A stretch of DNA of 64,000 nucleotides, taken from Tannerella sp. Its GTDB lineage: Bacteria; Bacteroidota; Bacteroidia; Bacteroidales; Tannerellaceae. Positions 685 to 12,702 of the stretch are shown piece after piece. Position 1 is the stretch's first letter. Each line of letters begins with the position of its first letter. Location of the stretch: positions 1 to 64,000 of the forward strand of contig NZ_JAUMYS010000002.1 of the NCBI RefSeq assembly GCF_030528505.1, in the 5' to 3' direction. A program made the translations under genes and the position numbers. The notes below the pieces were generated by a model, which saw nothing but the letters and a program-made list of their open reading frames with translations, ran no database searches and was not told the DNA's origin.

Positions 685-3003
685 TCAGAAGTTGATCTTA
701 CAACCGGCATTAAGTCTGAAAGAAGCCTCGGTGCGCAGATTGTCGGGGACGTAGCCTTTTGTTTTATAATCATAGCCCAAAAAGATCGACAGACGATTCT
801 GCTTTGTATAGCGATTATACAACAGCCGATATTCAAGTTCCTGCCCTATACGAAAACCGCTTCTGAACGTCCGGTCATAAAATCTCAGGTTAGCAGGTTG
901 CAACCAGTAATCGATGTTGGATGTGAGATGCAGGTGTCGGTTCAATGAGACGTCGTATAGTTTATAGCCCAGCCCCCAACCCGTTTTCTCATGATTTACA
1001 TACTGTCGTACGAATACGCCGTGCAATTGGCGCTTGTATGATAACCATATATTCTGCTCCATCTGTTCGCCGAAAGGAGTGCGGAGATAACCCAAACTGA
1101 ACGAGCCTTGCCAATGTCTGCCGAGCGGGATTCTACTGACTCCGAAGAGTGGTAACGAGCACAAGTTAAGCCATGAAAGATAGGACGATCGCCGCAAATA
1201 ACGCTGTGCTTCATCTGACAGTGCCGAGCGGGTAATGTGTGCGGAGAATGGAATCTCCGGTTCAAACAGGTACTTCACCCAACTTTTATTTACATCGACA
1301 ATCAAAGGAGTTTCGGATTCATTGTGCTTTTCGACTACGATATCTTTGAGCGGTGTCCACGAAACGGAATACATCCGATTATAAAGCAGATCGAGAGAAT
1401 AGTATCGGAGGTAATCGAGTAGATTGTTCCGATTGCGCGTATCGACACGTACGATTTCCTCTTCCTGCATTCGCGCTTTAACATACCGGTATTCGCTACG
1501 CACAGTATGCAAACGCATAAAATCCGTATAATCCTCTGTCTTCAAACGATCCATCTGCGAAACAGGAACACCGTAATGGTATGAACGGCCGAACGAATTA
1601 AATGCAAAAGGATGGTAGCGCATCTTTAGTTCTTTGCCAGAAAGAAGCTGCTGCTCGACAGCAATCTCTTCCCATGGGGCGATGATGGAATAATGAAGTG
1701 CGGCAGAGAGGGCTAGCCCCACATACAGATTGCCTGTTCTATGTTGGAATGTATAATTGGTAAATTGATTAATCGATGTAGCATTCCGTGCCAATAGATG
1801 CATATCGTTGGGAAACTGAGTCGATACGGACAGCGTCAGATTTGGGCTATAGAGCCTTTTATATACCGTTTCTCCGGCCTTCGATGTGGAAGCGTCACCG
1901 GATACGAGTTGTCGGGAAGCATATCCGGCCATTTTATACTGCATAGATCGGTCGGGCAAGGTTTGATTATGAGTCTTCCAGAAAACCGTATCCTCTTCGG
2001 CGAGAGGAGTCGAATGAAGAATCTCACTCTCTTCATCACGAATAAAAACTCCTTGAATATCTTCAGGGCGGAATGTCCGATTCATTTCTGTCAGCACCCA
2101 TTCGGCCGAGACTTTCATATCGCCTTCCGCTCCCCGATCCATATTATACACATAAGTGGATGTTAGAAAATAAAGGCTGTCCATCTTCTTATATTGCGTA
2201 ATATGTCGCTTTTGGCCATCGCTTAACTCTACACGTACAAAGGCCAAGTCGTCCGTATCGATATAAAACCGCCCGACAGTGCTCCTTCTATTTTTCGCAT
2301 CTTTATTCAGTTCTACTACATACACGCTCCGGTTATCATAACTGCTGAAAGGTCCGTAAGTTAACTGATTTTTACGACTAACTTCCCGCTGATCGTTCAA
2401 TACTTTCACATAGTCGAAAAGTCCCATACCGCTGATACGTCGGCGTCCTTTGTCGAAATTGAAATTGCGATTTCGAACTAAGAACGTCCGATCCTTCGCC
2501 TTTCGCCGGTACGATTTGATCTGCTCTATGGCTGCTTCTTCGGCATACAACAGCGAGTCGGTTGCCGGGTCATTTATCTTGGCACGATAAAATATGTTTG
2601 TCAGAAATTCGGTTTGCGGATAGTTTTGCGGGATTTTCTCGATCGCTTTTTGCAACAGCTCGCGAGCCGAAAGATTCGTAACGATGACTTCGTTCAGTGG
2701 TACATCGGCGGGAACTAATCGAATGGACAAAGTAAACCTGTTCTGCGCTATGGGTATGGCCTGCGTTTCGTACCCGATACACGATGCGGTCAGCGTATCG
2801 CCTGTTTCGGGCAACCGGAGCTGGAATTGCCCGTCGGAGTTCGTGACGGTTCCTCTTTTTGCCTGTTTGAAGAAAAGATTCACGTTTGGCAACGGCCGGT
2901 TATGCTCATCTACGACGCTTCCCGTAATGACCGAACGAGCTTGACCGTACAGCAAGGTCGGAATAACAAAAAAACAACACACAACATAAGACACCTTCAA
3001 CAT
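685..3003 (-). CDS. DUF5686 / CarboxypepD_reg-like outer-membrane protein
   Basis: A 772-residue protein with a signal peptide (about residues 1-20, ending LLYGQ). A carboxypeptidase-regulatory-like beta-sandwich follows (about 25-100, GSVVDEHNRPLPNVNLFF), then a long region of the DUF5686 type rich in aromatic beta-strands that probably forms an outer-membrane barrel. The C-terminus NAGCKINF ends in an aromatic residue, as in many barrel proteins. The family occurs widely in Bacteroidetes and its substrate is unknown. It lies 82 bp downstream of the last small peptide gene of the secretion operon, on the same strand. An AGTCAT/ATGACT inverted repeat sits between them (3034-3051), so co-transcription is possible but unproven. 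Confidence 0.8.
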   Translation of the reverse strand: MLKVSYVVCCFFVIPTLLYGQARSVITGSVVDEHNRPLPNVNLFFKQAKRGTVTNSDGQFQLRLPETGDTLTASCIGYETQAIPIAQNRFTLSIRLVPADVPLNEVIVTNLSARELLQKAIEKIPQNYPQTEFLTNIFYRAKINDPATDSLLYAEEAAIEQIKSYRRKAKDRTFLVRNRNFNFDKGRRRISGMGLFDYVKVLNDQREVSRKNQLTYGPFSSYDNRSVYVVELNKDAKNRRSTVGRFYIDTDDLAFVRVELSDGQKRHITQYKKMDSLYFLTSTYVYNMDRGAEGDMKVSAEWVLTEMNRTFRPEDIQGVFIRDEESEILHSTPLAEEDTVFWKTHNQTLPDRSMQYKMAGYASRQLVSGDASTSKAGETVYKRLYSPNLTLSVSTQFPNDMHLLARNATSINQFTNYTFQHRTGNLYVGLALSAALHYSIIAPWEEIAVEQQLLSGKELKMRYHPFAFNSFGRSYHYGVPVSQMDRLKTEDYTDFMRLHTVRSEYRYVKARMQEEEIVRVDTRNRNNLLDYLRYYSLDLLYNRMYSVSWTPLKDIVVEKHNESETPLIVDVNKSWVKYLFEPEIPFSAHITRSALSDEAQRYLRRSSYLSWLNLCSLPLFGVSRIPLGRHWQGSFSLGYLRTPFGEQMEQNIWLSYKRQLHGVFVRQYVNHEKTGWGLGYKLYDVSLNRHLHLTSNIDYWLQPANLRFYDRTFRSGFRIGQELEYRLLYNRYTKQNRLSIFLGYDYKTKGYVPDNLRTEASFRLNAGCKINF

Positions 3004-3085: not shown

Positions 3086-3256
3086 TCAAATATTAATATG
3101 TCCATCCAATTTACCATCCTGAAGATAATCTATTGCGGCGGCAGCGAGTATCACGACACCGACTATAACAGCAAAGAGACATCCTCCACTCACTTCTTCC
3201 ATCTCTTGAGCATTAAGCTCTGCTACTCCGTAAGTAGCCAAATTAAAATTTTTCAT
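3086..3256 (-). CDS. Double-glycine leader peptide precursor (peptide 4)
   Basis: A 56-codon gene. The N-terminal leader ends LNAQEMEEVSGG at residues 14-25. It has the hydrophobic positions -12, -7 and -4 and the GG expected for cleavage by a C39 peptidase, and it resembles the GG-Bacteroidales natural-product precursor family. The predicted core is 31 residues. It begins with Cys, is hydrophobic and Ala/Val-rich (VIVGVVILAAAA), and has a polar tail ending DGHINI. It is the last gene after the exporter operon, 70 bp from the small regulator. Whether it is a bacteriocin, a signal or something else cannot be told from sequence. Confidence 0.75.
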   Translation of the reverse strand: MKNFNLATYGVAELNAQEMEEVSGGCLFAVIVGVVILAAAAIDYLQDGKLDGHINI

Positions 3257-3688: not shown

Positions 3689-4996
3689 CTATCTGATGGC
3701 TTGGCCGGCATAAAAATCCAATATCTTTTTCCGCAAGGCAAATTCATATCTGGCCTGTGCCTGTTCGGAGCGGCTATTCGCCAGTTTCATTTTTGCTTCG
3801 TTATATTCGTATACGGTACTCTTTCCCGCTTGATATTTTTCTTTTGCATAGCGTAAAGCCTCACTGTTCGCCACGACGGAGTGGCGCGTCGACTCGTAGC
3901 GCTCGTGTGCGGAGAGCGCATCGTACCACGTCTTTTGTATTTCCTTATACAGCGTTTTCAACGCGTTGTCTGCGGCAAGACGACTATCTTCCTGCTCTTT
4001 TTGCGCTGTGCGTACGGCATTCCTGGTAGCCATTCGGTTAAATAGCGGAATACGGAGCGTGAGGTATACCGTTTGTTGCATATTGTTTTTAAACTGTGTA
4101 CTTAATGGCGGATTATTTTCATGATTGTGATAATATCCGCTACTTATTTTTGCAGCCAATGCTAAGGAGGGATAATAGCCGGCTTTGGCTATGCGAATAG
4201 CGCTTCGGCTGCTCTCAACAGCTGTACGAGCGCTTTTAATCTCAGGCATAATCTGTTCCGATACGGCAAAGATTTCATCCGGAGATACGGCCAAAGGCAT
4301 GAGTGTATCGAGCGCAACAGGCATAATATCGAAACCGGCGGTATCTCGCAGCTCGAGCAACTGAAGCAAATTGATCATGGAGAGGCGAAGTGTATTCGCT
4401 GCTTTGACCGAAGCCAATTCGTCATTTGCCAACTGTGCCTTGACCGTCAATACTTGCGATTCCGCTACTTTACCATGTGTAGCCAATACCCGCGTCATTT
4501 CTTCCTGTTCACGCGTCAATGCGATCTGTTCATCGGCTATCGCTACAATCTCCTTATCGAGCAAAATCTGATAATAGCACATGGTAACTTGCAACGTAAT
4601 ATCATTCCGTACTTTCTCTAATAATTCTCGATTTATTTTTAATTCTAACTTTTGCCGTGTGATCGAATGCTTTGTTCTAAATCCGGAGAACAGCCCCACT
4701 TCTGTGGTCAAAGAAAATGAACTTGTCTGTGAGTTGACATCCGTATACGTATTATCACGGTTCAGCGAACGCCCGAAATCAAATTGCTGTGTACCGTTCA
4801 AATTCACGTCCGGCAACCGGCTGTACTTTTCCGTCTCGACCCGAATGGCCTGCTTGTCCAACTGTACTTGTTGGCGTTTGATATCCACATTGGCATGCAG
4901 GGCTTGTTGTATGCATTCTCCTAATGTGTACGGGGCTTGGCCATACAGCAAGTTGCCTGATAGCAGAAGCAAGATAGAAAAGAGATGGTTTCTCAT
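3689..4996 (-). CDS. TolC-family outer-membrane efflux channel
   Basis: A 435-residue protein with a signal peptide (residues about 1-19, ending LLYGQ). The typical N-terminal motif YTLGECIQQALHANVDIKR follows, then two long alpha-helical repeats rich in Glu, Gln and Ala, as in outer-membrane efflux proteins. It should form the trimeric channel through which the ABC/HlyD pair exports peptides across both membranes. Its start overlaps the ABC exporter stop by 4 bp (ATGA), which indicates translational coupling. The next gene starts 5 bp downstream. Length is normal for the family. Confidence 0.9.
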   Translation of the reverse strand: MRNHLFSILLLLSGNLLYGQAPYTLGECIQQALHANVDIKRQQVQLDKQAIRVETEKYSRLPDVNLNGTQQFDFGRSLNRDNTYTDVNSQTSSFSLTTEVGLFSGFRTKHSITRQKLELKINRELLEKVRNDITLQVTMCYYQILLDKEIVAIADEQIALTREQEEMTRVLATHGKVAESQVLTVKAQLANDELASVKAANTLRLSMINLLQLLELRDTAGFDIMPVALDTLMPLAVSPDEIFAVSEQIMPEIKSARTAVESSRSAIRIAKAGYYPSLALAAKISSGYYHNHENNPPLSTQFKNNMQQTVYLTLRIPLFNRMATRNAVRTAQKEQEDSRLAADNALKTLYKEIQKTWYDALSAHERYESTRHSVVANSEALRYAKEKYQAGKSTVYEYNEAKMKLANSRSEQAQARYEFALRKKILDFYAGQAIR

Positions 4997-7152
4997 ATCA
5001 GATTATATTGTTCGTTCCATAATTTACGATAGGTGCCGTCTTCCTGTATCAGTTCTTCATGGGTGCCATGCTGAACCACTTTTCCATCATCCAACACAAC
5101 GATCGCGTCGGCATCTCTAACGGTACTCAGCCGATGGGCAATCACAATAATCGTCTTTCCTCGTTCCGCCAGGCTTTTTAGGGTCTGTTTTACAAACCTC
5201 TCCGAAACCGAATCAAGCGAAGAAGTAGCTTCATCAAATATTAAGATTTCCGGCTCTTTGTATAACGCGCGTGCAATGGCGAGACGTTGCCGTTCTCCCC
5301 CGGAAAGTGACGCTCCATGCTCACCGATATACGTCATATAATTCTGGGGTAACTTTTCAATAAACTCTTTTAAGCCTAATTGCTCGGCTAAGGTGATGAT
5401 TCGTTGCATATCCGGATATAAATCTCCGAGCGCGATATTTTCAGCAATACTTCCGGCAAATAATTCGATTTGCTGAGGAACAGTGCCAACCATGCTGCGC
5501 AAACTCTCGTTTGTTACTTGTGCAATATCGAACTCTCCGATACGTATCTGTCCTTCTTGTATCGGATAGATATGCTGCATGAGTGAAATCAGCGTTGTTT
5601 TACCGGATCCGCTCTCACCGATAACGGCGGTTGTTTTTCCTTTTTCAATTGTTAAATGTAATGACTCAAAAACCTTCTTTCGAGAACCGTAACGAAAGGC
5701 TACATTCTCGAACGAAATATGACCGATCATCTCCGGTGTCAGTACGATTTTCTGACTGTTGTCGCTTTCTCTCTCTAAGTCCATAATCTGAAACAGGCGG
5801 TCTGCCGCAATCAACGCATCCTGTATGGTTTGGTTCGACGTGATCAGCGAAGAGATCGGAGACAAGACATATCCAACTAATGAATAGAACAGCATCAGGG
5901 CACCCGGAGTCAGCTCCTGATCTATTACCAACACGCTGCCTGTCCACAATACGGCAATCGTCACTCCCGTAGAAATAAATTGGATACCTCCCTGTGCCAT
6001 AATAGCACCATAGATGCTACGGAACGTATTTTTCAACAAATGAACAAAACGCATTTCTGTCTTCAGGTTGGCATACTCTTCTATCCCGAAGCGTTTGATG
6101 GTCGAAATGGAGTTAATGGATTCGACCAACTGCGACTCAAGGTCAGCCGCACTTTCCATGATGCGGCGTTGATATTTACGATTCAGCCGGTTGAATCCCC
6201 AGAACACAAGCAGAAACAAAGGAGCAGACAAGAGGGTAACTACCGCAAGCTTCCATGAATACACAAACATCAGACAAGAAGTGAAGAACAAGATCATTAC
6301 GTTCACGGCCAAATCGAGCGAAACATTGTTGATAAAAGTACGAATCTTAACAGCATCGTTCACTCGCGAGATGATTTCTCCTACGCGCATCGTATCGAAA
6401 AATTGCTGAGGGAGAGTCAACAGATGTTTATAATATCCGAGAATCAATGCGGCATCGATACGCTGGCCGGTCTTTAAGGCCAGAATACTCTTCATCGCAC
6501 CGATAAACGTTCTCAATAAAAGGATGGCAATCATGACAACTCCCATCAGATGCAGCAGGTTCAAGTTCTTATCTACTAAAACATAATCTGTAATCTTACC
6601 GACGTAGACTGCCGTAGAGAGTCCTAAGATACTGTACACAAGAGCACCGAAAAGAGCTTGAAGCATGACGCTTTTATGTGGCATAAGCAAAGCCATGAAT
6701 TGAGAAACGATGCTTTTCTTTTCGTTTCCGCGCCGGAAAGACTCTTCGGGTTCCATAATAACCAAAACCTTTGTCCACTCTTTATTGAACTCCTCACGCG
6801 TTTTTTGATGCATGCACCCATCTCCGGGATCCATATAGGTGACATGTGTTTTCGTTACTTTATACACTACGACATAATGTTGTAACTGTTCTTTGACAAT
6901 GACATGGGCAATTGCCGGTTTAGGCACAATATCCAAGGCCTCCGGTAGCGCACGAACCCCTTTCGCCGATAAGCCGAGCTTATGCGCCGCTTGAGTGATT
7001 CCAAGCACATTTGTTCCCTTTTTATCTGTGAAAGCATACTGTCGGATACGGGAAACGGGAAAACGTAATCCATGGTAGGCACAAATAGATGCCAGGCAAG
7101 CCGCACCACAATCCGTTATATCATGCTGTTTAACTTTGATACCTCTTTTCAT
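4993..7152 (-). CDS. C39-peptidase-containing ABC exporter (PCAT), bacteriocin/peptide type
   Basis: A 719-residue protein with three parts. The N-terminal C39 peptidase has catalytic Cys15 in ITDCGAACL, Gln9 as oxyanion-hole residue, His92 in QHYVVVY and Asp108 in YMDPGDG. A six-helix ABC transmembrane domain follows (about 160-450). The C-terminal nucleotide-binding domain has Walker A GESGSGKTT, signature LSGGERQRLA and Walker B ILIFDEATSSLD. Such proteins cut the leader after GG and export the core. All catalytic residues are present. The four double-glycine precursors in this locus are the obvious substrates. It sits between HlyD (12 bp upstream) and TolC (4-bp overlap). Confidence 0.93.
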   Translation of the reverse strand: MKRGIKVKQHDITDCGAACLASICAYHGLRFPVSRIRQYAFTDKKGTNVLGITQAAHKLGLSAKGVRALPEALDIVPKPAIAHVIVKEQLQHYVVVYKVTKTHVTYMDPGDGCMHQKTREEFNKEWTKVLVIMEPEESFRRGNEKKSIVSQFMALLMPHKSVMLQALFGALVYSILGLSTAVYVGKITDYVLVDKNLNLLHLMGVVMIAILLLRTFIGAMKSILALKTGQRIDAALILGYYKHLLTLPQQFFDTMRVGEIISRVNDAVKIRTFINNVSLDLAVNVMILFFTSCLMFVYSWKLAVVTLLSAPLFLLVFWGFNRLNRKYQRRIMESAADLESQLVESINSISTIKRFGIEEYANLKTEMRFVHLLKNTFRSIYGAIMAQGGIQFISTGVTIAVLWTGSVLVIDQELTPGALMLFYSLVGYVLSPISSLITSNQTIQDALIAADRLFQIMDLERESDNSQKIVLTPEMIGHISFENVAFRYGSRKKVFESLHLTIEKGKTTAVIGESGSGKTTLISLMQHIYPIQEGQIRIGEFDIAQVTNESLRSMVGTVPQQIELFAGSIAENIALGDLYPDMQRIITLAEQLGLKEFIEKLPQNYMTYIGEHGASLSGGERQRLAIARALYKEPEILIFDEATSSLDSVSERFVKQTLKSLAERGKTIIVIAHRLSTVRDADAIVVLDDGKVVQHGTHEELIQEDGTYRKLWNEQYNLI

Positions 7153-7164
7153 CTGTTTTTATGT

Positions 7165-8322
7165 TTAATTGTTAGATACTTGTTTATACTGGGCAGGATT
7201 GACCCAATCATCCATCTTTTGGTAAAGCAGATCGAACAGGGAGCGACGGGTAATCATAAAATGAGCACTGACGGTCATTCCTTTCTTTAATTTACCGGTT
7301 CGCCCGTTCTTCAGCTGCAGGTAGTCTCTGTCCATCCCGCACTTTACCTTATAGTACGAATTTCCTCCGCTATCGGTCATAAAGTCGGATGATATCTCGC
7401 GAACCGTTCCACTGACCGTGCCCCATTCGTTATAATTGAATGATTCGATTTGTACAATTACCGGCATACCTAAACTCAAGTAACCGATATTTCTTGGTGT
7501 CACATACACTTCGAAATACAGCGTAGAGTCCGGACTTATCACGGCAAGGGATTCTCCGGCCCGTATGCTGCTGCCGCGATAGATAGCGGAGAACTGATCT
7601 AATGTTCCGCTGACCGGACTTTTAACAAAATACATATCTTTATCTTTGATTTCTTGCTTTAGAGAAGTATACATTTCGTTATGCGAGTTGCGGAGTGCGT
7701 TTAAATTTGCTTGCCATGTACTCATTTGATTTTCTATGAGCGAGGCCAACTCGTTCTGTTGACTTTTGTAGCGATAGTAATACGTATCGTATTCTTCTTC
7801 GGCAATGACTTTCTTTTCAAACAAAGCTTTATTGCGGAGATATTCTTTTTCCGCCTGATCCAACGAGGTCTCTAATTCTTTCTTTCGTTTGATATAATAA
7901 TGGTATTCCTGTTTGCATACAGGGGATTGAAAAGAAGAAGGAGACACTCCTCTTGCCAAATAGGTCAGATCGCTTAGTTGTTCGGCATAATCGTTCAGGC
8001 GGTTCGATTGATATGCAATCTTATAATCCGAACTGTTTGTGCGGAATCGCAAAAGAATGTCGCCCTTTTTCACTTGTTCGCCCTCACGGACGTAGACCGA
8101 ATCGACTAATTCCGTTACAGGCGACTTGATCTCCGTTTTCTCCGCAACAGGCCGGATGATACCCAGTCCCTGTACCGATATATCCACATAAATAAACGGC
8201 AGAGAAACCAACGCCACCGTCACAGCCGCCAATACGACCCAGTAAATTTTTTGAGACGTTGTCGTATGCTTATAGATATACGTCTCAATACTATTCTCAA
8301 TAAACTCGTTCGATAACAACAT
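7165..8322 (-). CDS. HlyD-family periplasmic adaptor of the peptide exporter
   Basis: The ATG at 8322 gives 385 residues (MLLSNEFIENS). An in-frame TTG at 8367 lies further upstream but inside the promoter region, so the ATG was preferred. One membrane anchor (about 26-46) is followed by a lipoyl-like half-domain (about 65-90), a long coiled-coil hairpin (about 110-240) and a beta-barrel region. This is the membrane-fusion protein linking the ABC exporter to the TolC channel. It is the first gene of the operon and lies downstream of promoter C (8348-8403), so its expression should follow the GTTA regulon. Confidence 0.9.
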   Translation of the reverse strand: MLLSNEFIENSIETYIYKHTTTSQKIYWVVLAAVTVALVSLPFIYVDISVQGLGIIRPVAEKTEIKSPVTELVDSVYVREGEQVKKGDILLRFRTNSSDYKIAYQSNRLNDYAEQLSDLTYLARGVSPSSFQSPVCKQEYHYYIKRKKELETSLDQAEKEYLRNKALFEKKVIAEEEYDTYYYRYKSQQNELASLIENQMSTWQANLNALRNSHNEMYTSLKQEIKDKDMYFVKSPVSGTLDQFSAIYRGSSIRAGESLAVISPDSTLYFEVYVTPRNIGYLSLGMPVIVQIESFNYNEWGTVSGTVREISSDFMTDSGGNSYYKVKCGMDRDYLQLKNGRTGKLKKGMTVSAHFMITRRSLFDLLYQKMDDWVNPAQYKQVSNN

Positions 8323-8347: not shown

Positions 8348-8403
8348 CAAAAGTATACTACGAACAACTGAAGCTATGTTATCATCATGTTATTTTTACG
8401 TTA
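8348..8403 (-). promoter_or_regulatory. Promoter C: GTTA 11-bp repeats plus TAnnTTTG box, exporter operon
   Basis: On the minus strand a -7 box TACTTTTG lies at 8355-8348. Exactly 22 bp upstream begins a row of three GTTA (TAAC on the coding strand) at 8378, 8389 and 8400, spaced 11 bp. No TTTG -33 box is present; the repeats occupy that place, as expected for an activator-dependent promoter. The layout is the same as at 10123-10178 and 10391-10456. The box is 25 bp upstream of the HlyD start. Confidence 0.7.
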
Positions 8404-8441
8404 ACAAAGCAGAGGCTCCTCACAACCGATATCGATAAAGC

Positions 8442-8485
8442 AAAAAGAGGATATACCAAGGTATTACCTTTTGGCATATCCTCTT
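8442..8485 (-). terminator. Terminator of the small-peptide cluster
   Basis: An imperfect long hairpin (AAGAGGATAT at 8445-8454 with ATATCCTCTT at 8476-8485) is followed on the minus strand by a T run. It separates the small genes above 8659 from the HlyD operon, so the exporter operon needs its own promoter. Confidence 0.65.
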
Positions 8486-8658
8486 AAATTCTATAAGAAT
8501 AAGAAAAATTAAAGGCGATGAGTAGATGTTAAAGAACAAATTAACACATCAAGCTCCACCCTCATTCTCCAAGCAACGCAACGCTGCCGTTTTTCTTCTT
8601 ATGACACCGCTTCTTGTTATTAAATATTCATACGTCTTTACCGGTTATCATATACCGA

Positions 8659-8790
8659 TTATAACATATTCATGCAAAAATCCATGCCGGCTTTAAATGC
8701 GTCGATGCTCTCGGACAAGTTCCGGATGATATCGTACAACACCCATATACCAAGGGTGATTAAGGCTGTTTTCCAAATTGTTTTTTTCAT
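8659..8790 (-). CDS. Small membrane peptide (43 aa), unknown
   Basis: A 43-residue product starting MKKTIWKTALITLGIWVLYD, with one hydrophobic stretch (about 5-22) and an amphipathic tail ending CMNML. There is no double-glycine leader. It is preceded by a purine-poor leader, so the ribosome-binding site is weak. It is the last gene of the small cluster, before the terminator at 8442-8485. It could be a membrane peptide toxin, an immunity peptide or a modified peptide exported without a GG site. No family was recognised. Confidence 0.45.
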   Translation of the reverse strand: MKKTIWKTALITLGIWVLYDIIRNLSESIDAFKAGMDFCMNML

Positions 8791-8858
8791 GTCCTAAATT
8801 GATGTTTTATTTCTTTGGTTTGTAAAAGAGCAACTTGCAAAACAATGTTTTGTAAAAA

Positions 8859-9068
8859 CTAAACGGAGCATTTTCGTCTTAAGTGACGATTCTTTATTGC
8901 ATAATATATCGATACCCCTAATAATGGTAGAAGAAGAATAAGGCATACCATAACTACCTTATATTGTATACTACGCTTTTTTTCATAACGCAGCAAGTCA
9001 TAAATTGCCAAACAGTCCGCTGCAATAATTAACGATAATACAATGGGATTAAATAATTGTCTTTCCAT
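8859..9068 (-). CDS. Two-helix membrane protein with PLDc_N-like pattern; possible immunity protein
   Basis: A 69-residue protein with two hydrophobic segments (about 6-25 and 38-58) and basic ends. The second segment (VCLILLLPLLGVSIYYAIKNR) resembles the short PLDc_N transmembrane module found in small membrane and immunity-like proteins. It lies 68 bp upstream of the 43-aa gene and downstream of another tiny membrane gene, within a peptide-export locus. Immunity function is inferred from size, topology and context only. Confidence 0.5.
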   Translation of the reverse strand: MERQLFNPIVLSLIIAADCLAIYDLLRYEKKRSIQYKVVMVCLILLLPLLGVSIYYAIKNRHLRRKCSV

Positions 9069-9152
9069 TACTGTTCTGTTTTAATAATTAATTCGGTTGA
9101 AGAACATGAAGCCAAAGAATTCAATTACTCTTGAGAATAGCATTCAATGCGC

Positions 9153-9284
9153 TTACCCAGCAGCCAAAGCTTGTCCGAATTGGTATGCTATTTCGCCGGC
9201 CACATAAATGATAATGGACAGGCAGAATAAAATCACCAATGCCTTATCTGCATTCGTCTCTTTTTTAAAAATACACCGTTTCAT
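9153..9284 (-). CDS. Small membrane peptide (43 aa), unknown
   Basis: The product starts MKRCIFKKETNADKALVILF and has one transmembrane-length hydrophobic stretch (about 15-32) followed by a Gly/Ala-rich tail (GQALAAG). There is no GG leader of the LxxxE type. It has its own recognisable promoter (9317-9347), so unlike the GG peptides it may be expressed independently of the GTTA operator. Its size equals that of the product at 8659-8790, though the sequences differ. Confidence 0.45.
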   Translation of the reverse strand: MKRCIFKKETNADKALVILFCLSIIIYVAGEIAYQFGQALAAG

Positions 9285-9316
9285 AAGTCTCTTTTTATTG
9301 TTAATATTTATTGTTG

Positions 9317-9347
9317 CAAAATTAAATAGAAAATTTCAATTATCCAA
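9317..9347 (-). promoter_or_regulatory. Bacteroidetes-type promoter of the 43-aa gene
   Basis: On the minus strand TTG (9347-9345), a 20-bp spacer and TAATTTTG (9324-9317) match the Bacteroidetes -33/-7 pattern. The box lies 32 bp upstream of the ATG at 9284. No GTTA repeats are present. Confidence 0.55.
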
Positions 9348-9481
9348 TTGTCCGAAAAGGCGATAAGTGACCGGAGAGGTAAATCGGTCCCTCTCCAGTC
9401 AAAAACATCACTTCCTGTCTTGCCGAATAACCCCTGAAATCAGTGGATAAGTGCAACACTTTCACAAAATAAAAATCAGAG

Positions 9482-9604
9482 TCAAATAAGCATGCTTAAA
9501 ATCAACAGGATCAGCGAACATGCCAACAATGCATATTTTATTTTTTTATTCTTGCATCGTATAGCCAATACAAGAGCGCATGAGGCAATAGCTATAAATA
9601 ACAT
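9482..9604 (-). CDS. 40-aa two-helix protein, candidate immunity partner of peptide 3
   Basis: The ATG at 9604 lies 3 bp after the stop of the peptide 3 gene, so translation is probably coupled. The product has two hydrophobic segments (MLFIAIASCALVLAI, then YALLACSLILLILSMLI) joined by a very basic turn (RCKNKKIK). A small hydrophobic protein directly behind a bacteriocin-like precursor is the usual place for an immunity gene. That role is inference and no homologue was recognised. Confidence 0.5.
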   Translation of the reverse strand: MLFIAIASCALVLAIRCKNKKIKYALLACSLILLILSMLI

Positions 9605-9607
9605 CTC

Positions 9608-9781
9608 TTATGAGTTTATCACGTATGATATCCAGAAACCAGCTCCCGCCACAGGACAGAGAAATGTGAGAGTATTCCCAATTAACATTGTTTTCCGGGA
9701 TATGCCACCATTAATGTCTAGAATTTCACTTTCTTCTAATTCTATACACTTCCAGTCTTCAAAATTAATCATCTTCTTCAT
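9608..9781 (-). CDS. Double-glycine leader peptide precursor (peptide 3)
   Basis: A 57-residue product. Leader residues 1-26 end LEESEILDINGG, matching the LxxxE(M/I)xx(I/V)xGG pattern of the other three precursors. The predicted 31-residue core starts ISRKTMLIGN, has one Cys at core position 16, and carries a Gly/Ala/aromatic segment (VAGAGFW). The ATG has a good AGGAAG-like ribosome site. It lies 21 bp behind peptide 2 and 3 bp ahead of the 40-aa membrane gene, in one operon led by promoter B. Confidence 0.72.
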   Translation of the reverse strand: MKKMINFEDWKCIELEESEILDINGGISRKTMLIGNTLTFLCPVAGAGFWISYVINS

Positions 9782-9802
9782 AGTTTTCTTCCTTTATGGC
9801 TA

Positions 9803-9976
9803 TTAACGATTTCTCCTGTCTGCTTCAGCACAATCCTTCCCCATCTGATATCCTATGGTAAATAGGGCAGCACACACAGCAATTACTTCAATAATCAGTC
9901 CGCCATTGACTTCCGTCATTTCACTCTCACTCATCACTTCCACTGCGTAAGTGGATTCATTCAAATTGTTTTTCAT
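9803..9976 (-). CDS. Double-glycine leader peptide precursor (peptide 2)
   Basis: A 57-residue product. The leader ends MSESEMTEVNGG (residues 15-26). The predicted core is 31 residues, starts LIIEVIAVC, and has two Cys at core positions 9 and 23 that could form one disulfide. The tail is charged (EADRRNR). This is the first gene downstream of promoter B (10123-10178), followed by peptide 3 and the 40-aa membrane gene. The exporter's C39 domain should cut after the GG. Confidence 0.75.
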   Translation of the reverse strand: MKNNLNESTYAVEVMSESEMTEVNGGLIIEVIAVCAALFTIGYQMGKDCAEADRRNR

Positions 9977-10122
9977 CTTTTTTTGTTTTAAAAATTAATA
10001 TAGTTATCTTTCATTCTCACAATCCCGCCATTTCACTCTTCATTTATTTATAGCCGGCAAAAAATAAAACCAAAGAGTTCAATCGTGCTTGACCGGAGAA
10101 ATCCATTTCCAAATTCATACCG

Positions 10123-10178
10123 CAAAGGTAACGTTGCTTTTTTCGCTCCTGTGTTAACGCTACGTTATCTTTACGTTA
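10123..10178 (-). promoter_or_regulatory. Promoter B: GTTA 11-bp repeats plus TAnnTTTG box, peptide 2/3 operon
   Basis: The -7 box TACCTTTG lies at 10130-10123 on the minus strand. Exactly 22 bp upstream begin GTTA repeats at 10153, 10164 and 10175, spaced 11 bp. The third repeat overlaps the end of the peptide 1 gene (stop at 10171-10173). The leader to the first ATG is about 146 bp. Confidence 0.7.
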
Positions 10179-10359
10179 ATTTTTCAGGAATATAAATTCT
10201 GACAATATCTCCATTTACAATAACATATTCCCAGTCTCCTCCTTCAATCATCTCCATCTCACGGTTGGTCAGATCGGTCAGACACCCATTCAGTACTTGC
10301 GCCGTCGCATTCTTTTTTGCGAAACCTCTTCTACATACATTAAATACATTCTTTTTCAT
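10171..10359 (-). CDS. Double-glycine leader peptide precursor (peptide 1), candidate pheromone
   Basis: A 62-residue product with a longer, basic N-terminal region (41-residue leader) ending LTNREMEMIEGG. The predicted core is only 21 residues, begins DWEYVIVNGD, contains no Cys, and is mixed polar/aliphatic instead of membrane-like. It is transcribed away from the histidine kinase gene, from promoter A. Short core, separate promoter and position next to a two-component pair fit a secreted signal peptide better than a pore-forming bacteriocin. This is inference. Confidence 0.7.
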   Translation of the reverse strand: MKKNVFNVCRRGFAKKNATAQVLNGCLTDLTNREMEMIEGGDWEYVIVNGDIVRIYIPEKLT

Positions 10360-10390
10360 ATCGATCCATTTTTAATTGTTTTTGATACGG

Positions 10391-10456
10391 CAAAGATACG
10401 GCCTTCGAAACTCATGCTATGTTAACGTTGCGTTATCTAAGGTTATCCGTAGGTTA
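10391..10456 (-). promoter_or_regulatory. Promoter A: GTTA repeats plus TAnnTTTG box, peptide 1
   Basis: The minus-strand box TATCTTTG (10398-10391) is preceded, after exactly 22 bp, by GTTA at 10421, 10432, 10442 and 10453 (spacing 11, 10, 11). The box is 31 bp upstream of the peptide 1 ATG. The same repeats end 18 bp before the -33 box of the divergent kinase promoter and could therefore also control the kinase operon. Confidence 0.72.
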
Positions 10457-10537: not shown

Positions 10538-11878
10538 ATGAATACAAGGAAGCCTAAAATTGTAACTGCTGCGTCGTTGTTTGTATTGTTCTGTCTGCAA
10601 GCAATGTGGTCGGTCTATACGTACCACATGCAGTATAGCCAGTTGGAAGAAAGATGCAATGTGGTCTTTGCGGCTTCTATGTTCAGAGATATTATGAGAC
10701 GCACAAAGGGAACGATTCCCGAAGGAGCGAGGATTGTTGCAGGTAAGGTGAGTGAAGATGGAAAAGATGATTATGTTCCTTTTCAGGAAGCTCTTATCGA
10801 ATATAATGCCCCCGTTTCACTGACACAGTTCGATTCGATTTACCAAACTTTTCTGGCCTCCGAAAATATCCATACAAAAACGATTATCGACAAAATCAAC
10901 CTGCGTACGGGTGAAGTATTGGAGAGCACCGACTCCGCGTTTCGCGCATGGTGGGGCACGGTCGAGACGGAGCCTGCGCTCCTTCGCAGAGATAGCACCG
11001 AAGCCCTTCGCGCCATTATCGTTTCGCCTCACAAAAATGTGTTCAGTCGGTTGGGGCTTCTTTTCATCGGCTCGTTAGTTTCCATGTTTTTTGTGGGGTG
11101 GGGTATCGCTTATCAGGTCAAAATTATCCTTCTTCAAAATCGGATTGCCGAGTTGCGTAAAAACTTCTCGAACGCGATGGTGCATGATATGAAAACACCG
11201 CTCAACACGATCCTGATGGGAGTGAAAATTCTGGGTAGCGGTAAGATCGACCACGATACGGAGAAGAAAAAGAAACATTTCGACATCATAGAAGACAAAT
11301 GTCATCATCTGCTTTCGTTGAGCGATAAAGTTATGACACTTGCGAAAATAGAAGAAGACAAACTGATCCTCGACCGTGCCGAAGTGCCTTTGAAACCGTT
11401 GGTCGACGAGCTGGTCCGTCACCTCTCGATCCGTACGGACAAACAGATTACGTTCGAGATGCATTGTCCGGAAACGGAGCAGGTCTATGCCGATCCGATG
11501 CATTTGCGCGAAATCATCAGCAACCTGATTGATAATGCCGTCAAATATTCCGGTGCCTCGGTGCACATCAACCTGTCGTGCCAGACCACTCCGAACGAGA
11601 CCAGAATCAGCGTTTCGGACAACGGATTCGGTATCCCGCTAAAAGACCAGGCGCTGATTTTCGAAAAATTCGAACGCGCCTCGGCCGCCAACAAACGCTC
11701 GCTGCGCGGAGGACCGACGGGCTTCGGACTGGGACTGACCTACGTGCAGCAAGTCATGCAGGCACACGGCGGAAGCGTAGAAGTAGAGAGCATCGAAGGA
11801 CAAGGCAGTGTATTTACGCTGATCTTCCCCCTCCTGGTGCAAGAAATATCCTTTCAATTAATCCCTGAAATGACATGA
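10538..11878 (+). CDS. Sensor histidine kinase of the peptide locus
   Basis: A 446-residue membrane kinase. TM1 lies at about 9-28, followed by a periplasmic domain of about 140 residues and TM2 at about 172-194. The HisKA dimerisation domain has phospho-acceptor His216 in AMVHDMKTPL. The ATPase domain has N box NLIDNAVKYSG, G1 DNGFGIP and G2 GFGLGLTYV, all intact. It overlaps the response regulator by 4 bp (ATGA). It probably senses a periplasmic or extracellular cue; the neighbouring secreted peptides are candidates, but no binding motif was recognised. Confidence 0.9.
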   Translation: MNTRKPKIVTAASLFVLFCLQAMWSVYTYHMQYSQLEERCNVVFAASMFRDIMRRTKGTIPEGARIVAGKVSEDGKDDYVPFQEALIEYNAPVSLTQFDSIYQTFLASENIHTKTIIDKINLRTGEVLESTDSAFRAWWGTVETEPALLRRDSTEALRAIIVSPHKNVFSRLGLLFIGSLVSMFFVGWGIAYQVKIILLQNRIAELRKNFSNAMVHDMKTPLNTILMGVKILGSGKIDHDTEKKKKHFDIIEDKCHHLLSLSDKVMTLAKIEEDKLILDRAEVPLKPLVDELVRHLSIRTDKQITFEMHCPETEQVYADPMHLREIISNLIDNAVKYSGASVHINLSCQTTPNETRISVSDNGFGIPLKDQALIFEKFERASAANKRSLRGGPTGFGLGLTYVQQVMQAHGGSVEVESIEGQGSVFTLIFPLLVQEISFQLIPEMT

Positions 11879-12564
11879 TTAAACTTTTATTCGTTGAAGA
11901 CGATGCCCAACTGCTCTACATGGTGCGCAGCGGGCTGGAAGACTTGATTGGCGGTTACGAAATCCTCACGGCCGTGAACGGCAAAGAAGGCTTTCAACAA
12001 TGGAAAGAGCAGATGCCGGACATCATCGTCTCCGATATTGAAATGCCCGTGATGAACGGCTTCGAAATGGTTTCGAAAATTCGCCAGACAGACGGCCGGA
12101 CACCGATTATTTTTGCGACAGGACTCCTTTCGCCCAAAGATTTAATACACGGCTATCAGGTCGGCGTCAATAACTATATCAAGAAACCGTATACCTCCGA
12201 AGAAATTGACGCACACATCAAGGCATTGCTCAGGACACGGAACAGCGAACAGGCCAAAGATACCACGTCGCAGTTTACGTTAGGCGGCTTCCGGTTCGAC
12301 GCATCGAAGTCGGAACTGCATGACAAGAACGGAAAAACGATTTCGCTCGGCCCGCGCGAAACACAGATATTGCAACTCCTGTGTGAACACCGGAACGAAA
12401 CCGTCAGACGCAAAGCCATTCTCGAACGATTCTGGCCGGAAGCCGATTATTTCACCTCGCGCAGCCTGGACGTGTTCATCGCACAGTTGCGAAAGCGCTT
12501 CGCCGGAGACGACGGCGTTTCCCTCGTAACCGTGCGAGGTGTCGGACTCAAGTTGACCTACTGA
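11875..12564 (+). CDS. OmpR-family response regulator of the peptide locus
   Basis: A 229-residue protein. The receiver domain (1-120) has acidic residues Glu8, Asp9 and Asp10, phospho-acceptor Asp54 (VSDIEMP) and the conserved Lys in YIKKP. The C-terminal winged-helix DNA-binding domain (about 133-229) ends VRGVGLKLTY. OmpR/PhoB-type regulators bind direct repeats about 11 bp apart, the spacing of the GTTA repeats at promoters A, B and C. It is therefore the best candidate to control them. Cotranscribed with the kinase. Confidence 0.9.
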   Translation: MIKLLFVEDDAQLLYMVRSGLEDLIGGYEILTAVNGKEGFQQWKEQMPDIIVSDIEMPVMNGFEMVSKIRQTDGRTPIIFATGLLSPKDLIHGYQVGVNNYIKKPYTSEEIDAHIKALLRTRNSEQAKDTTSQFTLGGFRFDASKSELHDKNGKTISLGPRETQILQLLCEHRNETVRRKAILERFWPEADYFTSRSLDVFIAQLRKRFAGDDGVSLVTVRGVGLKLTY

Positions 12565-12604
12565 CGGCAAGCGAAAGCATGACAAAATGTCCGATTCTAC
12601 CCCG

Positions 12605-12702
12605 TTGTTGTACAACAATGACCTTTAAACAGGAGTTTTTGACCCGTTGTTGTGCAACAATGGCAGTTAAATAGCGTGTTTGACCCTGTTGTTGTACAAC
12701 AA
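12605..12702. repeat. Three 14-bp palindromes exactly 42 bp apart
   Basis: TTGTTGTACAACAA occurs at 12605-12618 and 12689-12702, and TTGTTGTGCAACAA at 12647-12660. Start-to-start distance is 42 bp both times, about four helical turns. Each sits in a degenerate unit starting CCCGTTGTTG or similar. The block lies 40 bp after the response regulator and about 160 bp before the fumarase gene. It may be an operator for a dimeric repressor or a small tandem repeat. Confidence 0.7.

Follow-up and report, generated by a model that had tools for sequence, protein, structure and literature searches.

TAAC-repeat promoters with a fixed 22-bp gap at a putative peptide-signalling locus of Tannerella sp.

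The class II bacteriocin pheromone circuits of Gram-positive bacteria, ComC/ComD/ComE, BlpC/BlpH/BlpR and Pln, are the closest described parallels to the locus considered here. Circuits of the ComC/BlpC type use an HPK10 kinase and a LytTR regulator, and to our knowledge signalling by pheromone peptides with a double-glycine (GG) leader is known mainly from Gram-positive bacteria. Promoters of the pho box type, served by OmpR/PhoB regulators, contain 11-bp direct repeats. The present locus lies in a 64,000-bp stretch of DNA from Tannerella sp., an oral bacterium (contig NZ_JAUMYS010000002.1, positions 1 to 64,000; hereafter the window), where three promoters share an array of TAAC half-sites placed 22 bp from a box of the form TAnnTTTG. 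From sequence comparison we propose, with a probability of roughly 0.8, that these arrays are activator sites of the OmpR/PhoB-type response regulator encoded nearby, at 11875–12564.

The likenesses to the ComC/BlpC circuits are as follows. A GG-leader peptide is encoded next to a kinase/regulator pair, along with a C39 exporter, several bacteriocin-like peptides and small hydrophobic candidate immunity proteins, and direct repeats precede each operon. In contrast, the Tannerella locus has a HisKA/HATPase_c kinase and an OmpR/PhoB-type regulator instead of HPK10 and LytTR proteins, belongs to a Gram-negative cell with HlyD and TolC partners, and encodes a peptide whose hairpin-like core carries an invariant turn glycine. 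Since the kinase and regulator are of other families, the locus is an analogue of the ComC/BlpC circuits, not a member. The promoters resemble the pho box in having tandem half-sites one helical turn apart, the last of which would replace the −33/−35 element; they differ in that the half-site is TAAC, lies 22 bp from a Bacteroidota −7 box, and is present in three or four copies.

Two peptide systems of the Bacteroidetes also invite comparison. The bacteroidetocins, as described in the main text of PMC6671954, are likewise GG-leader peptides encoded with a peptidase/transporter gene, and their mature forms have 42–48 amino acid residues and four cysteines. The four GG peptides of the window do not fit that description, and their identification as bacteroidetocins was rejected; the terms two-component, histidine kinase and regulator have no occurrence in that main text. 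In a 2023 survey of Bacteroidales (PMC10352776), the available text describes BGC5, a cluster for ribosomally synthesized and post-translationally modified peptides, whose precursor peptides lie close to a histidine kinase and a response regulator, as in the window, and could act in signalling. Unlike the present locus, BGC5 has long predicted cores, radical SAM and LanC-like enzymes and no transporter, and neither promoter repeats nor short hairpin peptides are described for it there. No report of the TAAC/22-bp promoter class or of the hairpin peptides was found in the open literature, a scope that leaves out most subscription papers and all bioRxiv preprints.

The half-sites read GTTA on the plus strand and TAAC on the minus strand, which is the coding strand of the genes downstream. 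On the minus strand the layout common to the three promoters is TAAC-N7-TAAC-N22-TAnnTTTG, with one or two extra TAACs upstream. The elements, together with a promoter-like site of another kind, are:

8378–8403, minus strand: array 1, three TAAC at 11-bp steps (8378/8389/8400), 5′ of the exporter operon; kept in T. forsythia ATCC 43037
8348–8355, minus strand: −7 box TACTTTTG, 22 bp from array 1 and 25 bp from the HlyD ATG (taken at 8322)
10153–10178, minus strand: array 2, three TAAC at 11-bp steps (10153/10164/10175), 5′ of the peptide 2/3 operon
10123–10130, minus strand: −7 box TACCTTTG, 22 bp from array 2
10421–10456, minus strand: array 3, four TAAC at 11/10/11-bp steps (10421/10432/10442/10453), between the peptide 1 and histidine kinase genes
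10391–10398, minus strand: −7 box TATCTTTG, 22 bp from array 3 and 31 bp from the peptide 1 start codon
10475–10506, plus strand: TTTG-N20-TACCTTTG, an ordinary −33/−7 promoter-like site 5′ of the kinase/regulator operon, its place derived from an offset of −63

The repeat positions and spacings of the original prediction proved exact when the coordinates were re-checked, its 22-bp gap between the nearest repeat and the box was confirmed at all three promoters, and the downstream genes that it named were found as described: the exporter operon (HlyD-type adaptor and C39-peptidase ABC exporter), GG peptides 2 and 3, and GG peptide 1. Half-site steps are 11 bp throughout, except for a single 10-bp step in array 3. 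Array 2 overlaps the final 8 bp of the peptide 1 gene (10171–10359).

Within the window, TAAC-N22-TAnnTTTG occurs three times, always at the three promoters, and six of the eight occurrences of TAAC-N7-TAAC are there as well. The full pattern, found three times, was absent from 100 dinucleotide shuffles of the window, in which TAAC-N7-TAAC occurred with a mean of 1.33 and a maximum of 4. The whole assembly (2.9 Mb, 113 contigs, 91.6% complete) contains five full patterns, namely the three window promoters and two elsewhere, and a reversed control gave none. The original prediction had expected genome-wide matches at other GG-peptide genes; this was not borne out, as the two extra sites precede M16 peptidase and redoxin-like genes and may be owned by RprY or another regulator:

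G000:C103:17951–17995 (L007/L012): full array with the 22-bp gap and two further TAACs upstream, 5′ of an M16 peptidase gene; recurs in G014, the genome of T. forsythia OH1426
G000:C35:788–832 (L006/L011): two TAAC with the 22-bp gap, 5′ of a redoxin/AhpC-TSA-like 327-aa gene; recurs in G014, where the site is directly followed by a different protein of 276 aa

No TTTG is found 18–22 bp before the box in seven promoters, three from the window, three from ATCC 43037 and one from OH1426. The last TAAC, 22 bp from the box, falls approximately at the place held in the kinase promoter by the −33 TTTG, which is 20 bp from its own box. That the three window promoters lack the −33 TTTG and have the last TAAC in its place suggests that a bound regulator would recruit RNA polymerase. 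Thirteen aligned sites read approximately taacgtAAAgATAACgTnncgtTAACAtag, then TAccTTTG. A −33/−7 promoter-like site near the kinase gene was seen in the window and OH1426 only, among nine kinase loci checked, ATCC 43037 being without it.

The window regulator is 86% identical to that of T. forsythia OH1426 and 79% identical to that of ATCC 43037. Phasing and 22-bp gap, the 10-bp step included, are intact at all three promoters of ATCC 43037. The 11/10/11 steps of array 3 thus recur there, and they recur also, with one extra repeat, at locus L043, whose regulator is 43% identical to that of the window. The OH1426 locus has lost its GG peptides, peptide 1 included, as well as the exporter, and the closest exporter match anywhere in that genome is 32% identical; what it retains is the kinase and regulator, one array promoter and three of the small hydrophobic proteins. 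From its gene content OH1426 looks like a receiver that keeps candidate immunity without weapons and signal, that is, an immunity-only or eavesdropper pattern.

The geometry was then followed to related kinase loci. A family set of 33 kinases came from loci picked by similarity to the window kinase or regulator, and 19 lower-scoring kinases formed a comparison set, for which 20 regions were taken; L145, and likewise L109 of the family set, gave no kinase open reading frame (ORF). From one list, 20 of the 22 marked regions entered; G362:C71 was left out and G315:C39 later joined the comparison loci. Eleven loci, five of them with a hairpin peptide, went into the kinase model A1. Six family kinases (L106 twice, L114, L116, L117 and L118) have no sensor match or fall below the 36-bit cut, and the remaining 27 supplied the upstream regions for the gap analysis. 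Because five of the 19 comparison kinases (L128, L129, L130, L143 and L147) score at least 31 bits on the sensor model, the family and the comparison set are not strictly separate.

A TAAC stands 22 bp before TAnnTTTG in nine of the 27 family regions, against a shuffle mean of 0.04; the best count at any gap across 300 shuffle sets was 2. Secondary peaks at 44 bp (six regions) and 33 bp (five) correspond to the next repeats. If TAAG is allowed as well, the count at gap 22 rises to 11 of 27, and when the three loci of the T. forsythia group are removed it is 6/24, or 8/24 with TAAG.

Further array sites were noted. In G013, the proteins encoded behind four-TAAC arrays with the 22-bp gap (L060 and L066) are one that resembles a CAAX protease (Rce1-like, PF02517) and one of 304 aa that looks related but has no Pfam match; CAAX-type proteases are found among the immunity proteins for bacteriocins. 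At L053 the four-TAAC array and its box are present in two copies 141 bp apart (G039:C3:181201 and 181342), with no ORF longer than 35 aa starting within 350 bp downstream of the first copy and none of at least 30 aa for the second. In L106 (3225–5082) an array with the 22-bp gap lies 5′ of three similar-looking proteins of 189–195 aa in tandem, the first of which matches DUF3267 (zincin-like).

The half-sites track the recognition helix of the regulator, which makes an OmpR/PhoB-type regulator the likely binder. Scoring covered 44 of 52 kinase rows, after removal of six in which no regulator was found and two with under 200 bp upstream; the RprY locus is not in the set. A TAAC pair is present at 24 of the 34 loci with Arg at the key helix position and at one of the ten without it (Fisher p 0.001); for gap 22 the figures are 14/34 and 0/10 (p 0.018). 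The only two loci with the helix KSNNLDVY, L049 and L052, have TAAG at the identical 22-bp gap. This suggests a code between half-site and recognition helix, in which the Arg helix would go with TAAC and the KSNN helix with TAAG. Several points weigh against assigning the arrays to the local regulator. Binding and activation by it are read from comparisons of sequence. Of the 34 Arg-helix loci, ten are without a TAAC pair and 20 without the 22-bp gap; the key position was picked after a partial table had been viewed; and the loci are related by descent, so the Fisher values, like the Mantel values given below, overstate independence. At L101, one of the nine gap-22 loci, the site lies beyond the peptide gene and not between peptide and kinase. 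The 22-bp geometry also occurs at three of the 19 comparison kinase loci, L130, L138 and L141. The proposal that TAAC repeats are a private signature of the kinase family was rejected on the identical gap at these three loci, and two or three TAAC pairs were counted at each of L130, L132, L138, L141 and L143. The geometry at the three comparison loci implies that several OmpR-type regulators of the order use this class of promoter.

The genes that the arrays would serve, and those next to them, are:

685–3003, minus strand: 772-aa protein with a carboxypeptidase-regulatory-like N-terminal domain, final gene of the exporter stretch
3086–3256, minus strand: GG peptide 4, class IIb bacteriocin-like (TIGR03949, 28.2 bits, cut-off 21.5), downstream of the exporter
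3689–4996, minus strand: TolC-like outer membrane efflux protein (OEP)
4993–7152, minus strand: C39 peptidase-containing ABC exporter (TIGR01193, 527.2 bits, cut-off 523.85)
7165–8322, minus strand: HlyD-family adaptor, first gene of the exporter operon
8659–9604, minus strand: four small hydrophobic proteins, candidate immunity proteins (8659–8790; 8859–9068, PLDc_N; 9153–9284; 9482–9604)
9608–9781, minus strand: GG peptide 3, not listed among TIGR03949 matches
9803–9976, minus strand: GG peptide 2, weak TIGR03949 match (18.5 bits, below the cut-off of 21.5)
10171–10359, minus strand: peptide 1, a 62-aa GG-leader peptide with a 21-aa hairpin-like core, the proposed autoinducer
10538–11878, plus strand: histidine kinase (HisKA and HATPase_c) with a sensor domain between two long helices, the proposed receptor
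11875–12564, plus strand: OmpR/PhoB-type response regulator, recognition helix TSRSLDVF, the proposed array binder

The regulator gene had been predicted to be of OmpR type, and its domains agree (Response_reg, 82.7 bits; Trans_reg_C, 62.6 bits). Peptide 4 is the only one of the four GG peptides above the TIGR03949 cut-off, peptide 1 scoring 12.7 bits (cut-off 21.5). We infer that the genes behind the arrays form operons; if co-transcribed, the array 2 transcript would take in peptides 2 and 3 plus the four small hydrophobic proteins, for all of which, except the PLDc_N one, look-alike ORFs are present in OH1426. Between the regulator and fumarase-like genes, the palindrome-like GTTGTTGT(A/G)CAACAA is present in three copies (12604, 12646 and 12688, together 12604–12702) exactly 42 bp apart.

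The proposed mechanism is as follows. Regulator molecules phosphorylated by the kinase would line up on the TAAC repeats along one helix face. The last half-site would replace the −33 TTTG element, with the bound regulator recruiting RNA polymerase in a class II-type activation. This would turn on peptide 1 and the exporter together with the GG peptides and the candidate immunity proteins that go with them. Since the kinase/regulator operon has an ordinary −33/−7 promoter-like site in the window, sensing may stay on. Peptide 1, the likeliest trigger, would be processed at its GG site, leave the cell through that exporter and be recognised by the kinase sensor, giving autoinduction.

The chief competitor for the binding step is another OmpR-type regulator of the genome, above all RprY, acting on the arrays alone or with the local regulator. 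RprXY had first come under suspicion from the adjoining fumarase-like gene, a label given by reading the sequence. RprY is the best NCBIfam match of the window regulator, and the recognition helices are related; the window regulator, however, scores 168 bits on NF051850 against a cut-off of 370, whereas a true RprY, at 463 bits, is encoded elsewhere in the same genome (G000:C10), and on these two grounds the identification as RprY was dropped. The C10 protein could nevertheless be the binder: its helix, NARSMDVY, belongs to the Arg type associated with TAAC repeats and is similar to that of the window regulator, and the arrays upstream of comparison kinase loci mean that another regulator could share the window sites. 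A published RprY binding site was not found in the available text of two P. gingivalis papers (PMC3646045 and PMC6032018). The arrays, however, cluster at the local regulator's own locus and recur beside its relatives in other genera, and we consider control by RprY or another such regulator unlikely. The original prediction of a local regulon thus stands in part. The arrays are conserved with the regulator in ATCC 43037, the geometry lies beside kinase relatives, and the half-site tracks the helix; since motif and gap are not private and RprY has a similar helix, a local regulon under one regulator is likely but not proven.

Two other accounts concern what the arrays do. They might be repressor sites through which the regulator shuts off the peptide and exporter promoters, which we judge improbable, because the arrays stop at −33 and leave the −7 box and the start uncovered, and because the absence of a −33 TTTG from the seven checked promoters, with one present in the kinase promoter, is the layout of activator-dependent promoters. 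A phasing of about 11 bp is also seen in curved DNA, so that chance or curvature in A+T-rich intergenic DNA might be invoked. The full pattern is nevertheless missing from all 100 shuffles, the 22-bp gap is fixed across distant loci, and the half-site shifts from TAAC to TAAG with the helix in two loci; given the fixed gap and the helix association, this last account is largely refuted and hardly credible. Activation by the local regulator remains our preferred reading of the arrays.

The signal step turns on peptide 1, which has relatives beside the kinases. A hairpin GG peptide (family A3) lies within 700 bp and on the opposite strand at 13 of the 33 family kinases and at none of the 19 comparison kinases; a pattern match in OH1426, lacking the GG, was left out of this count, and with under 200 bp of upstream DNA at L050 and L103 a peptide there could be missed. 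A3 peptides have a GG leader, 39–70 aa in all, and a short core in which mostly hydrophobic strands flank one invariant turn glycine. The window and ATCC 43037 peptides are 68% identical. Window peptide 1 has no NCBIfam or Pfam match at E ≤ 0.01, and weak model matches in the family are to ComC (Pfam 2/13, NCBIfam 1) and BlpC (1/13). In the structure model of peptide 1, residues 42–48 and 51–57 form two strands, with a mean predicted local distance difference test (pLDDT) score of 53 and about 67 in that part, so the hairpin fold, from a low-confidence model, is suggestive only. At L110 (3760–4297), the hairpin peptide gene is present in three near-identical tandem copies beside the kinase.

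By tblastn with the window exporter, a full-length relative is found in eight of the 13 peptide loci (window, L009, which is ATCC 43037, L043, L101, L104, L108, L115 and L118), each with a C39 domain by Pfam. L052 has part of one at a contig edge, which brings the loci with all or part of a C39-type exporter to 9/13, and none was found in L046, L105, L110 and L111. The remaining family loci searched gave a single match, an ABC part, in L112. When 393 genomes of the order were searched with a model built from the 13 peptides, there were 12 matches of at least 49 bits and nothing else above 27. Eleven of the 12 lie at kinase loci of the set, as training sequences or tandem copies, and the twelfth, in G324, runs into a contig edge; matches below 27 bits fall mostly on the leader part, and no complete kinase ORF was seen in those inspected (L156, L157, L158 and L162). 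On 123 genomes of the family the model gave six matches, those beyond the training set being the ATCC 43037 peptide in G871, with the kinase adjacent, and G016:C180, a blind match divergent from a family kinase and with TAAC repeats at the 22-bp gap from TTCCTTTG. Peptide-core distances correlate with sensor-domain distances (Mantel r 0.65, p 0.0002, n 13). In partial Mantel tests the core follows the sensor given the kinase domain (0.41, p 0.0004), whereas the relation of core to kinase domain is 0.05 (p 0.31). Without L009 the partial values are 0.28 (p 0.014) for the sensor and 0.15 (p 0.12) for the kinase, and without L009 and L118 they are 0.30 (p 0.015) and 0.005.

On this evidence peptide 1 may be the signal for the neighbouring kinase, rather than one more product, with a likelihood that we place a little short of even. 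The other account, to which we give close to an even chance, is that the kinase senses something else, such as a bacteriocin, exporter activity, envelope stress or a small molecule, and that peptide 1 is an extra exported effector. For the model of the kinase sensor, with a mean pLDDT of 83, Foldseek gave no match at E ≤ 0.001; compared with solved extracytoplasmic sensors, with a PDC/CACHE-type fold in question, it gave a best VIA Z of 7.5 and several at 5–6, below a meaningful level. It is at that level, with Z of 5–7.5, that it resembles the small-molecule and envelope sensors WalK, TlpB, CusS and CpxA, a point on the side of a different signal. OH1426, which lost peptide 1 and the exporter and still has kinase and regulator, counts against the signal step, although a strain that eavesdrops or has immunity only could also keep the kinase without its peptide. 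Core and kinase-domain distances also correlate, at r 0.55 before correction, while the partial tests tie the core more closely to the sensor domain than to the kinase domain. Only in the window, L009 and L043 is the peptide gene itself preceded by a TAAC array with the 22-bp gap; L052 has TAAG, L046 has no pattern match, and L104, L105, L108, L110, L111, L115 and L118 have none. Since these distant peptide loci lack the array, the pairing of peptide and kinase extends beyond the TAAC promoter class. A run on 395 genomes of the class added a single match, G639 (34.5 bits), for which no such kinase was seen in the 3.1 kb read. This sole weak match is longer and cysteine-rich, and an extension of the family beyond Bacteroidales was rejected. 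Against an extra effector is the fact that the hairpin peptide adjoins the kinase in L105, L110 and L111, with no exporter relative within 12.5–14 kb there.

What we propose as new, by analogy with the Gram-positive circuits, is the peptide 1 family of GG peptides with short hairpin-like cores, which as secreted autoinducers would make a Gram-negative counterpart of ComC/BlpC. Taken jointly, the observations allow a tentative picture, which we hold to be somewhat less probable than not, in which the peptide 1 family are undescribed secreted hairpin autoinducers in Bacteroidales, each read by the adjoining HisKA kinase. In the Arg-helix branch, an OmpR-type regulator would fire the TAAC/22-bp promoters of bacteriocin-like peptides, exporters and immunity proteins, and OH1426-like strains would be eavesdroppers. 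If true, a Gram-negative version of such signalling in Bacteroidales, common inhabitants of mouth and gut, would reveal how these bacteria time their release of bacteriocin-like peptides. The fixed promoter geometry would then be a simple readout, and genomes could be scanned for it to draw up lists of candidate regulons.

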